DNA of 64,000 bases from Nocardioides iriomotensis. Lineage in GTDB: Bacteria > Actinomycetota > Actinomycetes > Propionibacteriales > Nocardioidaceae. Of this stretch, positions 5,237 through 8,678 are shown piece by piece. Numbering within the stretch: the first letter of the stretch is position 1; every line of letters begins with the position of its first letter. The notes beneath the pieces were generated by a model. It was not told the DNA's origin and did no database searches. It saw nothing but the letters and a program-made list of their open reading frames with translations. The translations under genes were made by a program, and so were the position numbers. Location: NCBI RefSeq assembly GCF_004168035.1, contig NZ_SDPU01000034.1:186001-250000 (forward strand). Reading direction: 5' to 3'.

Positions 5237-7621
5237 TCAGGGCACGACGCCGATGGGGGCGCTGATCTCGTCGGAGCCGATGCGCACGACGAGCGGGCCG
5301 CGACCGGCAGGCAGCACTGCGTCGAAGGTGCCGGAGAACGAGGTCGCGCCTGGGGCGACCGGGCACGTCATGACCGTGGAAGAGGTGAGCACGCACCCGG
5401 GCACCGGGCTCTCGAACTTCTGCTGGTTCTCCGGCAGGACGAGCTCGATCGAGGTCGTGCCGCGGGGGACGCTCACCGTGAAGTCGACGTTGTGCAGGTT
5501 GCCGCTGCGCAGCGTGGCCCTCGGCCCCGACACCCAGGCGAGCTCGACCGGGACGGGCTGCAGGGTGGTGCCGACGGAGTTGTCGCCCGGCGCGAGCTCG
5601 TCGTACTCCGCCGGAGCCGTCACCGTCAGCGTGAACGGCGTCTCGACGTCCGTCGCCGCGCCGAGCACGAGATCGACGATCTGGCCCTCGTCTGGGTCCG
5701 GGCAGCGCAGCGCGCCGCCCTCGATCGCGCACCCGCTGGCGCTCTCGATCGTGGCGCCGGTCGCGCCCAGGTCGACGTAGTCGAGACCGTCGACGCCGCG
5801 CAGCGTGGTGCTCACGACGTACATGCCGTCGGTTCCCGGCAACGGGTTCGCCGGCGTGAGCGGGGTCAGGGAGACGTTCGTGACGCCGTCGTGGTTGAAC
5901 GTCGCGAACACCGGGTCCACGCCGTCCGCCGACAGCGTGAGCGTCACGACGGTGTCGCCCTGGTTGAGGGGGACGGACAGCGGCAGGTCGTAGCTCGTGG
6001 TCGTGCCGGTCGGGCACAGCACGGACGTTCCGGTGGCACCGATCCACGGTGTGCAGTCGCCGAGCGTGGAGCCGAACGTGATCCCACCCAGTGGGGTGAG
6101 GTCGACCCGCACCGTGCTCGGGAGGGTGCCGCCACCGGCGAGGCTGAACGACACGGAGCCGTTGTTGTAGCTGGGCGCCGCGGCGAACGCCACGGTCGGC
6201 GGCGGCGTGACCACGGGCGGCGTGACCACGGGCGGCGTGACCACGGGCGGCGTGACCACGGGCGGCGTGACCACGGGCGGCGTGACCACGGGCGGTGTCA
6301 CCGGCGGCGTCGTCGGAACCGGCTCGGCTGCCGGGGTCGGCTCGCCGGTCGGAGCCGGCTCGTCCGTCGGGGTCGGCTCCCCGGTGGGGGTCGGCTCCTC
6401 GGTCGGGCTGGGCTCGTCGGTCGGAGTCGGCTCGTCGGTGGGAGTCGGGTCGGTGGTCGGGGTGGGCTCCTCGGTCGGGACCGTCGTGGTCGGGTCGGCA
6501 CCCGGGAGCTCGACCGGCACGAGGTAGGGGGAGTCCGTCTCGGTCTCGGGGACGTCCGACGCGGTGGCTGCTTCCTCGGTTTTCCGCTCGTCCTGCGGCT
6601 GCGGGAGCTGGGAGGTCGCCTCGGCGGGAGGAGCGGCCGGGACCTCGGCGGTGGCCGGGTTGTCGGCCGCCACCACCTTCTCCGGGCTGCTGGGCAGCAT
6701 CATCACGCCGACCGTCGTGGCGGCGACGACGCTGGCGGCCACGCCGCCCACGGTGGCGACCCCGGCGTTGGCGACGACCACGTCGCGCACCCGGCCGAGG
6801 GCCGCGACGAGGCCGAGACTGCCGGCTGAAGCGCCACCGGCGGCAGCGAGGTAGCCGGTGGCGGCCGCACCGAGCAGCAGGGGCGCGATGATCGCGGCGA
6901 GGTTCGAGTTGACCTCGGTCAGCTCGAGGTACATCGCCGTGCAGCGACGGCACTGGTCGACGTGCCCCTGCACCTTGGTGCTGTCGCGGTTGGAGAGCCC
7001 CTTGCGGACGTAGGCGCCGAGGTGCTCGTTGACCCAGCGGCAATCGGTGTCGGAGATGTCGTTGAGGTGCATCGTGAGGAACGCCTGGCGGAGCCCCTCG
7101 CGCGCCCGGTAGGCCAGGGCGGACACCGAGTTGGCGCTCATGCCGAGCAGCGGCGCGATGTCGGCGGGCTTGTTGCCCTCGACCTCGAGGTGCCACAGCA
7201 CGAGCTGCCAGCGCTCCGGCAGCGTGGCGAAGGCCCGCGCGGCCGCACCGCTCTCGAAGTTCGCGATCGCGGTGTCGTGGAACGGGACGCCCGGGTCGAA
7301 GGCCTCCATGTCGTCGGACGTCTGCACCTTGGCGCCGGCCCGCATCTTGTCGACGTGCAGGCGGCGTACGGCGGTGAGCAGGTAGGCGCGGAACGCCACG
7401 TCCGGGCCCCCGCCGCCCTGCAGCACGGACAGCACCTTGGCGAACGCCTCGGAGACCAGGTCGTCGGCGTCGGGCCCCCGCACGAGCTGGCGCGCGAGCC
7501 GGTTGGCGGCCTCCCGGTGCCGCGAGAACAGGTCCCCGTAGGCAGCGACGTCCCCACCGCGCACGCTCGAGATCAGCTCGGCGTCGCTGGGTGTCGCGAG
7601 TTCGCTCAGCAGGTCGGTCAT
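5237..7621 (-). CDS. ECF sigma factor fused to zinc-motif anti-sigma-like, membrane and large C-terminal domains (794 aa)
   Basis: A single chain joins modules normally found in two proteins. Residues 13-95 are a sigma-70 region 2 (DADDLVSEAFAKVL and the YLLTAVRRLHVD helix). Residues 130-185 are region 4 with a helix-turn-helix (KPADIAPLLGMSANSVSALA). Residues 194-227 carry an HxxxCxxC zinc motif (H220, C224, C227) like anti-sigma factors of the ZAS type. Hydrophobic stretches lie at 240-261 and 286-309. Then come a Glu/Pro/Thr stalk (378-440), six exact VVTPP-type repeats (441-475) and a 320-residue beta-rich C-terminal part with repeated domains similar to bacterial DUF11/Ig-like folds. One predicted span would put the C-terminus outside, two would put it inside; the domain type favours outside. 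Actinobacterial ECF groups with C-terminal membrane extensions are known, so this is a member or relative of those. A GAAGG sequence precedes the ATG at 7621. Confidence 0.85.
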   Translation of the reverse strand: MTDLLSELATPSDAELISSVRGGDVAAYGDLFSRHREAANRLARQLVRGPDADDLVSEAFAKVLSVLQGGGGPDVAFRAYLLTAVRRLHVDKMRAGAKVQTSDDMEAFDPGVPFHDTAIANFESGAAARAFATLPERWQLVLWHLEVEGNKPADIAPLLGMSANSVSALAYRAREGLRQAFLTMHLNDISDTDCRWVNEHLGAYVRKGLSNRDSTKVQGHVDQCRRCTAMYLELTEVNSNLAAIIAPLLLGAAATGYLAAAGGASAGSLGLVAALGRVRDVVVANAGVATVGGVAASVVAATTVGVMMLPSSPEKVVAADNPATAEVPAAPPAEATSQLPQPQDERKTEEAATASDVPETETDSPYLVPVELPGADPTTTVPTEEPTPTTDPTPTDEPTPTDEPSPTEEPTPTGEPTPTDEPAPTGEPTPAAEPVPTTPPVTPPVVTPPVVTPPVVTPPVVTPPVVTPPVVTPPPTVAFAAAPSYNNGSVSFSLAGGGTLPSTVRVDLTPLGGITFGSTLGDCTPWIGATGTSVLCPTGTTTSYDLPLSVPLNQGDTVVTLTLSADGVDPVFATFNHDGVTNVSLTPLTPANPLPGTDGMYVVSTTLRGVDGLDYVDLGATGATIESASGCAIEGGALRCPDPDEGQIVDLVLGAATDVETPFTLTVTAPAEYDELAPGDNSVGTTLQPVPVELAWVSGPRATLRSGNLHNVDFTVSVPRGTTSIELVLPENQQKFESPVPGCVLTSSTVMTCPVAPGATSFSGTFDAVLPAGRGPLVVRIGSDEISAPIGVVP
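6204..6293 (-). repeat. Six exact tandem copies of a 15-base unit
   Basis: The unit GGCGTGACCACGGGC (plus strand) is repeated six times without a mismatch. Read on the minus strand it encodes the PVVTP stalk repeat of the sigma-factor fusion. Perfect identity at DNA level suggests recent expansion or slippage, so copy number may differ between strains. Confidence 0.95.
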
Positions 7622-7925
7622 GTGCCTTCAGGGGTGGGACGGCCCGAGAGTGAGGTCATGACGCCGAACGGCGCGCACGACTTCGCTCACGGTAAGCGGT
7701 GGAGGAGCCTCCGCATGGCTGATCGGCCGGATTCGTGCCCGAGTTGAGCGATCCTGGCGAAGCGGACGGGGTGGTCCCGGAACCGTTACCGACCGAAATT
7801 GGTCGAAAAAACTTCTCAGAATCGCGTCATGCCGTCCGACCTCGCCCGTTCCATCGCCGAAGGAAGCGTCGGGGCGAGCGCTGGTGGGAGCGCTTCGGGG
7901 ACACGGAGACGGAGGTGGGCAGCTG
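7622..7925. other. 304-base divergent intergenic region
   Basis: This lies between the sigma fusion (minus) and the GGDEF-like gene (plus). It holds an ECF-type promoter-like pair at 7779-7804, an A-rich patch near 7795-7812 that stands out in this GC-rich DNA, and a small GGAGG/CCTCC hairpin near 7701-7712. A 63-codon open frame from a GTG at 7735 ends in a TGATG overlap with the next gene, but its arginine-rich sequence has no recognisable family and I do not call it a gene. Confidence 0.6.
7779..7804 (+). promoter_or_regulatory. ECF-type promoter-like sequence GGAACC-N16-GGTC
   Basis: GGAACC at 7779-7784 and GGTC at 7801-7804 are separated by 16 bases. ECF sigma factors commonly use a GGAAC -35 and a short GTC-containing -10 at about this spacing. 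It points toward the GGDEF-like gene. That the fused sigma factor next door uses it is inference. Confidence 0.45.
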
Positions 7926-8678
7926 ATGGCCCTCTTCACGTTTGCGCGTCGCCGGCCCGACGCCGACTCGGACGTCGTGGCCCGTGGGTTGCCCGAGCAC
8001 GTGCGGGAGTCGCTCCCGTTGCGGTTCGAGGCGGTGGGGGAGGCCTTGGCGTCCGGGGGGGACGTCGCAGCGGCCTGCCACGTGGTGGGTCGTGACGTGG
8101 CCCGAGACGGTGCCGCCCTGGGAGAGGCACTGTCCGGGCTGCGTACGACGTACACGCTCGTGCGCGGCTCCGACCCGGAGTTCTCCGCCACGGAGGCGCT
8201 GTCGGTGGCCTGGAGCGAGGCGACGCTGGAGTACCTGCACGACCTGTCGTGCGAGGACCCGCTGACCGGCCTGACCAGCCTGGCCCACGTCCGGACCCGG
8301 CTCGCCGAGGTCTTCCGCGACGCCGAGCTGACCGACGTACCCGTGAAGATCAGCCACGCGCTGGTCGTGGTCGAGGTGCGCGTGCGCGGTCGCGCGCTGC
8401 TCGACGAGCACCAGTTCACCCGAGCGCTTCGCCTCGTCCAGGTCGCCGAGGCGATGCGTTCGGTGTTCTCCGGCGGCGAGACGATCGGCCGTCTGGGCCT
8501 CAACCGCGCGGTGGCGGTGGTGGGCCGGCACATCGACCTCGGTACGTCGGTCAACCTGCTGCGCGACTTCCTCGGCGACCTCGACCTCGGCGACGCCGAC
8601 GTGCGGGTCTGGATCGAGGGCCTGCCCGGCACGCACGACTCCGCGACCCGGTTGCTCGACGAGCTCGCTCGCACCTGA
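7926..8678 (+). CDS. Degenerate GGDEF-like domain protein (250 aa)
   Basis: Residues 105-235 look like a diguanylate cyclase GGDEF fold: the N-terminal motif DPLTGL is intact (in CEDPLTGLTSLAHVRTRL). At the place where the active-site GGDEF loop should be, the sequence reads IGRLGLNRAVAVV, so the catalytic glycines and acids are gone. Cyclase activity is not expected; the domain may bind a nucleotide or a partner. The first 100 residues are a helical region without a family I recognise. The ATG at 7926 follows a strong GGAGGT ribosome-binding site. It is divergent from the sigma fusion gene and ends 7 bases before the convergent oxidoreductase. Confidence 0.75.
   Translation: MALFTFARRRPDADSDVVARGLPEHVRESLPLRFEAVGEALASGGDVAAACHVVGRDVARDGAALGEALSGLRTTYTLVRGSDPEFSATEALSVAWSEATLEYLHDLSCEDPLTGLTSLAHVRTRLAEVFRDAELTDVPVKISHALVVVEVRVRGRALLDEHQFTRALRLVQVAEAMRSVFSGGETIGRLGLNRAVAVVGRHIDLGTSVNLLRDFLGDLDLGDADVRVWIEGLPGTHDSATRLLDELART

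Follow-up and report, generated by a model that had tools for sequence, protein, structure and literature searches.

A putative one-chain ECF sigma receptor with a changing ectodomain and a divergent degenerate GGDEF gene in Nocardioides iriomotensis

Organization of the locus

We analyzed a stretch of 64,000 nucleotides from Nocardioides iriomotensis (NCBI RefSeq assembly GCF_004168035.1, contig NZ_SDPU01000034.1, positions 186,001 to 250,000 of the forward strand), referred to here as the window. On its minus strand, at 5237..7621, lies a single open reading frame of 794 codons with an ATG start which encodes, in one chain, extracytoplasmic function (ECF) sigma domains, a zinc anti-sigma (ZAS) domain, a membrane region and immunoglobulin (Ig)-like repeats; it is termed the receptor gene below. 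Divergent from it on the plus strand, at 7926..8678, is a gene for a degenerate GGDEF protein (a pseudo-diguanylate-cyclase), termed the partner, whose ATG at 7926 follows GGAGGTG. The architecture of the receptor, the constancy of its core behind a changing ectodomain, its linkage to the partner, the conserved promoter-like sites between the two genes and the loss of the GGDEF signature from the partner were all established by computation.

Sigma region 2 (residues 31-95; 7337..7531, minus) was matched by Pfam PF04542 (Sigma70_r2) at 29.4 bits, over the cut-off, and sigma region 4 (residues 128-175; 7097..7240, minus) by PF08281 (Sigma70_r4_2) at 22.6 bits, with a cut-off of 25.7; the same region of a same-genus orthologue, L048, scored 32.4. 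Membership of the ECF family was given by NCBIfam TIGR02937 (sigma70-ECF), which covered residues 27-180 at 56.3 bits, over its cut-off. The ZAS domain (residues 194-227; 6941..7042, minus) was matched over cut-off by PF13490 (zf-HC2) at 28.4 bits. ZAS domains are defined by the motif HX3CX2C with an upstream Cys or His ligand, and both elements are present as C194-x25-H220-x3-C224-x2-C227, with HVDQCRRC at 220-227. Over 38 homologues H220, C224 and C227 were invariant and C194 was kept in at least 90%. The Pfam search of the window protein gave no match beyond residue 227 at E<=1.

Two hydrophobic segments follow, at about residues 241-262 (6836..6901, minus) and 288-310 (6692..6760, minus), joined by a short loop of net positive charge. 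A Thr/Pro stalk (about residues 376-475; 6197..6496, minus) is encoded by in-frame tandem arrays at 6201-6295 (a perfect 15-nt unit, 6.3 copies) and 6320-6479 (an imperfect 18-nt unit, 8.9 copies); since both units are multiples of three, slippage would alter the length of the stalk and leave the frame intact. The remainder of the chain is the ectodomain (residues 478-794; 5240..6190, minus), in which jackhmmer matched three Ig-like repeats at 488-567, 579-692 and 708-781, with one cysteine pair each. AlphaFold predicted a beta-sandwich for repeat 2, with a predicted local distance difference test (pLDDT) score of 83.5, and the structural matches of the repeat were generic Ig-like folds.

An earlier sequence-only reading of this DNA had given the coordinates, strand, start and length of the gene correctly, and its sigma regions 2 and 4, its HxxxCxxC zinc motif, its two hydrophobic segments and its Thr/Pro stalk are all borne out by these results. 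It had also described a 320-residue beta-rich domain; the extent and the beta-rich character hold, but the region consists of three Ig-like repeats and not of one domain. A frameshift or assembly error joining two genes, which that reading had considered, is not what was found: homologues of the core were encoded at 80 of 81 loci, all of them pre-selected for an earlier search match there, and a layout which recurs across so many genomes is not an assembly error.

The HxxxCxxC motif was present in 78 of these 80 homologues, and the two loci without it are fragments, L022 at a contig end and L028 split over frames. L028 (G023:C1, about 2598624-2599545) is an orthologue broken up among three frames; its assembly is a single contig and 91% complete, and the cause is either sequencing error or pseudogene formation. 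At the remaining locus, L099 (G148:C6:368000-380000), two examinations found no encoded homologue despite a core match listed at 373277-374239. A paralogue, L030 (G024:C1:2804208-2804978), ends soon after the zinc domain, and its match reads through one TGA, so that either a decayed gene copy or a short, soluble protein may be present. In the whole genome G000 (4.7 Mb) there were 44 Sigma70_r2 matches, several within open frames of 556-1034 residues which may be other sigma fusions or merely long GC-rich frames.

A conserved core behind a changing ectodomain

The search covered 58 genomes, that of the window among them; 55 had some match to the protein at E<=0.001, many of these being ordinary sigma factors, and 31 had a match at E<=1e-50, as counted from the rows of the search. 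Of 295 genomes in the class, 116 had the sigma-ZAS-membrane core at E<=1e-15. The core tree, of 77 sequences, mostly tracked taxonomy, with some deep branches long and weakly placed: the families f3, f17, f20 and f32 each formed one group, while f1 (the Nocardioidaceae, the family of the window) and f19 needed two changes. From gene order, among other signs, we infer that f19 is Streptomyces-like, f3 Kribbella-like and f20 Micromonosporaceae-like.

Within the genus the sigma-ZAS part was 77-86% identical to that of the window, whereas the ectodomain was only 30-34% identical, compared with 28-29% for shuffled sequence (six comparisons). That the protein is mainly a surface adhesin in which the sigma part survives as a relic would suit so large and fast-changing an ectodomain; the sigma-ZAS part is, however, the conserved half, the reverse of what a relic should look like, and we regard this explanation as barely credible.

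The ectodomains differ in number as well as in sequence of repeats. With a repeat unit of about 110 residues, three matched stretches were counted in the window protein and 3, 7, 9, 9, 10 and 11 in six same-genus homologues, not all of them full length. When only stretches of at least 85 residues were counted the window protein had 1, L048 had 3, L054 had 7, L050 had 8, L053 had 9, L052 had 8 and L051 had 5, so that the high repeat counts hold on this criterion, but six of the 11 stretches of L051 are short. The long L051 ectodomain has 4 cysteines, compared with 16-20 in the long L050, L052, L053 and L054, and disulfides may have been lost in this one lineage.

Twenty proteins were scanned singly against Pfam for ectodomains, and behind the same core eight had a recognised domain over cut-off: fn3 with RGI_lyase-type domains (L057), DUF7507 (L059), ricin-B lectin (L061), Ig with ricin-B lectin (L107), NPCBM (L097 and L103), Big_6 (L131) and DUF11 (L133). 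The other 12, the window protein among them, had none. A conserved switch thus carries differing ectodomains, and the suggestion in the sequence-only reading that this ectodomain is lineage-specific was, if anything, an understatement.

Orientation in the membrane

Segment 2 is a predicted transmembrane segment with its N-terminal side in and its C-terminal side out, and an outside C-terminus is backed by several indirect signs, counted over homologue rows which are related and not independent. When the 20 residues on either side of segment 2 were compared in 76 homologues, the preceding stretch had the higher net charge in 68 and the following stretch in 5, with the two equal in 3. Of 75 homologues, 60 have an even number of ectodomain cysteines, 4 an odd number and 11 none. 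Some relatives, moreover, bear ricin lectin, fn3, Ig or NPCBM domains, which are typical of exported proteins.

The opposite arrangement, in which the two segments form a full hairpin, the C-terminus is cytoplasmic and the Ig repeats serve as an intracellular interaction arm, draws on two other counts. Two hydrophobic stretches were seen in 57 of 76 homologues (one in 13, three in 6), and two segments by themselves do not give an outside C-terminus. Lys plus Arg were more numerous ahead of segment 2 in only 47 homologues of 76, equal in 14 and fewer in 15; this asymmetry is weaker than that of net charge, so part of the latter is due to acidic residues after the segment. Set against the net charge, the even cysteine counts (60 of the 64 that are not zero) and the ectodomains of relatives, a cytoplasmic C-terminus appears quite improbable. 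As two full spans would place the C-terminus inside, segment 1 probably forms a hairpin or a re-entrant loop, or else lies at the membrane as a peripheral helix. The one-piece surface sensor of the sequence-only reading therefore stands as a single-chain, membrane-anchored putative sigma receptor, its outward C-terminus backed by the indirect signs above.

The divergent partner gene

The partner protein of the window, searched alone, had no Pfam or NCBIfam match. A profile built from 28 partner homologues, by contrast with the single sequence, gave seven PDB profile matches of FimX and diguanylate-cyclase type at E values from 2e-4 to 0.0092, the best being to FimX (3hva, E 2e-4), which indicates a GGDEF fold. 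Weak Pfam matches were seen among the 28 members, to GGDEF_2 in 3 and to GGDEF in 2, with none in the window copy. The catalytic GG[D/E]EF signature, sought as GG, SG or AG before [DE]EF, was found in none of 47 partners, and the aligned position in the window partner reads GLNRA. Most partners keep a D-P-L-T-G-L motif; an additional region is present at the N-terminus, and most copies carry a WIEGLP...LLDEL tail at the C-terminus. The partner is thus, by its sequence, a pseudo-GGDEF protein.

At 29 Nocardioidaceae orthologue loci aroA or DoxX was present in 26, a GGDEF-like gene in 26 and both in 24. The receptor gene thus commonly stands beside aroA or DoxX, and the sequence-only reading was mistaken in describing it as an interruption. 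Neither aroA or DoxX nor a GGDEF-like gene was seen at L030, L032, L034 and L037, four loci of paralogues in this family. Over all homologue loci the partner adjoined the receptor gene in 47 of 80. By family it was present at 26 of 29 loci in f1, 8 of 8 in f3, 5 of 10 in f17, 5 of 5 in f20 and 2 of 3 in f24, f40 and f15 taken together, as well as at 1 of 13 other or paralogous loci, 0 of 9 in f19 and 0 of 3 in f32.

When the 295 whole genomes were scanned with the partner profile, 45 had a match at E<=1e-8, and 38 of these 45 matches adjoined a sigma-receptor gene (coordinates compared by eye); a partner thus adjoined the receptor in 38 of the 116 genomes with a receptor core. All 32 matches with E<1e-30 were divergent from the receptor gene, and the six in f20 lay directly upstream of it on the same strand. 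The remaining seven (G191, G137, G063, G197, G200, G125 and G058) were weak, partial and located elsewhere, and are probably ordinary GGDEF proteins. The profile was built from neighbours of receptor genes, which favours such matches, but it held no f20 sequence, and the linkage in f20 therefore confirms the pairing of partner and receptor independently.

At the f20 loci L107-L111 the order is not the divergent one seen elsewhere: the pseudo-GGDEF gene precedes the receptor gene on one strand in an operon-like arrangement, 34-37 bp separating the frame ends. All five still have RsgA-, aroA- or inositol-monophosphatase-like genes, as labelled here, in the vicinity.

Promoter-like sites in the shared upstream region

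Alignment and motif scans located two ECF-type promoter-like sites between the genes. The site facing the receptor gene, CGTCATG-N14-CCGTC, is at 7638..7663 on the minus strand and ends 16 nt before the ATG; the site facing the partner gene, CGTCATG-N14-CCGTT, is at 7825..7850 on the plus strand. In an alignment of nine orthologous upstream regions these appeared as two inverted copies of one element. The element CGTCAY-N15-CCGTY was present in 20 of 27 Nocardioidaceae upstream regions, where shuffled sequences lead one to expect 0.1 and the reversed control gave 0. Nine of the 27 loci had served to find the motif, and among the 18 regions kept out of motif finding 12 had the element. Upstream DNA totalling 10.8 kb at the same 27 loci contained 27 sites, as compared with 3 in the other 405 kb of these loci. 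Across the whole genome CGTCAYG-N14-CCGTY occurred 10 times and the backwards pattern once; the eight strict sites besides the two intergenic ones were all inside predicted reading frames, so the regulon looks narrow under the strict form.

ECF promoters, such as those of ECF41, have a -35 element and a -10 element that the CGTCA and CGTC of these sites resemble, in spacing also, and we infer that the sigma factor encoded here reads them. They might instead be genuine promoters or operators of another regulator. For that account speak the 12 held-out regions with a site, of which nine had it facing the partner only, two facing both genes and one facing the receptor only, as well as the distribution of the strict element, absent from the upstream regions of f17 (10 regions), f20 (5), f19 (9), f32 (3) and other relatives (16) and present in 1 of 8 in f3. 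A looser element, from a pattern widened after inspection, was found in 8 of 8 regions in f3, 2 of 3 in f32, 2 of 8 in f19, 0 of 10 in f17 and 0 of 5 in f20. The concentration of sites at the receptor locus, the spacing and CGTC -10 element of ECF type, and the position of the other eight genomic sites inside reading frames argue the other way, and we consider control by another regulator fairly unlikely.

A proposed mechanism

The explanation which we favour, and hold to be moderately probable as a whole, is that of an ECF52-like one-protein receptor which is released by proteolysis and drives its own gene and that of its pseudo-GGDEF partner. In the resting state the ZAS domain would keep the sigma domains of its own chain inactive on the cytoplasmic side of the membrane, while one net membrane crossing and the Thr/Pro stalk would display the ectodomain, with its adhesin-like Ig repeats, on the cell surface. 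A surface cue, whether ligand, wall contact or strain, would lead to cleavage near or in the membrane and so free the sigma domain, which would then read the CGTCAYG-N14-CCGTY promoters of its own gene and of the divergent degenerate-GGDEF gene. The pseudo-GGDEF protein would be the dedicated cytoplasmic component of the module; its linkage and the shared promoter region single it out as the leading candidate for a protein which, in the cytoplasm, regulates the switch or serves as its effector.

A receptor of the same build could be activated by a change of conformation without cleavage, the sigma domains recruiting polymerase at the membrane or the zinc domain letting go reversibly. Such control has been described for ECFs with C-terminal extensions, ECF41 and ECF238, in the accessible text of PMC8999054, and would be in keeping with the lack of a known protease site. 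A membrane tether beside a ZAS-like domain, however, resembles regulated-proteolysis systems, and in the portion of PMC5826349 available the authors working on SCO4117 suggest excision of the sigma part; we judge activation without cleavage to be unlikely. Release by proteolysis has likewise been proposed for ECF48, ECF52 and ECF53 (PMC8999054, available text). According to the same portion of PMC5826349, a truncation of SCO4117 to its sigma part had a lesser effect than full deletion, and the truncated part can still modulate development.

Several results weigh against the favoured explanation of proteolytic release and self-driven expression, beyond the Lys plus Arg counts, the two-segment topology and the distribution of sites given above. 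Sigma region 4 of the window copy scores below the Pfam cut-off, and 12 of the 20 scanned proteins have no recognised ectodomain. At 33 of the 80 loci, the nine f19 loci all among them, no partner was found. No cleavage site was found in the receptor, and the available parts of PMC8999054 and PMC5826349 contain no demonstrated proteolysis for any ECF52. The predicted structure of the core was of low confidence (pLDDT 46) and not used. Peptidase_M50 genes lie at two places in the genome, G000:C14 and G000:C16, but they were also present in 14 of 14 control genomes, so their presence is permissive only.

As a further and tentative proposal, to which we give rather less than an even chance, the locus may be a two-gene device in which a sigma receptor with interchangeable, fast-evolving adhesin- or lectin-like ectodomains is gated by a dedicated pseudo-diguanylate-cyclase, co-expressed from the sigma factor's own promoters. 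The gating might, as part of this same proposal, act through binding of guanine nucleotide or cyclic di-GMP, for example, or of the zinc domain. Such a device would couple surface sensing with nucleotide signalling and need no separate anti-sigma factor; the link that the pseudo-GGDEF partner makes between the two would be new.

Relation to known systems

Membrane-sensor sigma factors are known mostly by prediction, and the available text of the cited papers names one characterised ECF52 member. The locus described here offers a candidate promoter, a short candidate regulon, natural ectodomain variants on one conserved switch and a partner gene that is linked to it in several families. Should the ectodomain set the signal and the core the output, these proteins would be natural one-chain receptors whose input is open to domain-swap study.

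The kind of protein is not new, as the sequence-only reading had recognised in pointing to actinobacterial ECF groups with C-terminal membrane extensions. SCO4117 of Streptomyces coelicolor (ECF52) is described in the available portion of PMC5826349 as one chain of sigma domain, zf-HC2 domain, membrane segment or segments, Pro-rich extension and extracytoplasmic domain. The window protein shares with it the sigma domain, zinc finger, membrane region and Pro-rich extension in one chain; it differs in that the carbohydrate-binding C-terminal domain of the published description was not detected by Pfam, Ig-like repeats standing in its place. The window locus also differs in its aroA-DoxX neighbourhood, in its separate clade in the core tree, and in its pseudo-GGDEF partner, which is absent from the nine f19 loci and, at E<=1e-8, from every f19 genome of the class sample. 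The two f19 copies that were examined out of the nine, L097 and L103, have NPCBM together with TetR and NDH2-type neighbours, like SCO4117 beside atrA, and share about 40% identity with the window core in alignments; SCO4119 is an NADH dehydrogenase. Judged against the published description, the window protein is ECF52-like and not an ECF52 member, because the carbohydrate-binding domain was looked for and not found.

The single-chain layout of ECF52 and its proposed proteolytic release were thus known already. The open literature searched, to which the main ECF classification papers did not belong, yielded no description of swapped Ig, fn3 and ricin ectodomains, of repeat-number variation or of a pseudo-GGDEF partner of such a sigma receptor; PMC9239204, in the part available, treats Campylobacterota. 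Ectodomain diversity as such is partly known, because PMC10766802, in its accessible text, describes some ECF52 and ECF53 proteins with domains predicted to be glycosyl hydrolases or to bind carbohydrate.

Three further systems may be compared. ECF48 and ECF53 of Actinobacteria, likened here by description only, share the layout of the window protein: a probable ZAS zinc finger is fused C-terminally together with one or two membrane helices, and proteolysis is predicted (PMC8999054, available text). The same source gives IutY of Pseudomonas putida (ECF243) as an experimentally characterised sigma domain fused to a membrane anti-sigma domain and released by Prc and RseP; it too is likened by description, and it differs in serving iron-starvation cell-surface signalling with aerobactin as the signal. 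With the degenerate GGDEF proteins of FimX type the partner shares the profile match and, in most copies, the D-P-L-T-G-L motif, whereas its replaced signature, its extra N-terminal region, the C-terminal tail of most copies and its linkage to a sigma gene set it apart from them.

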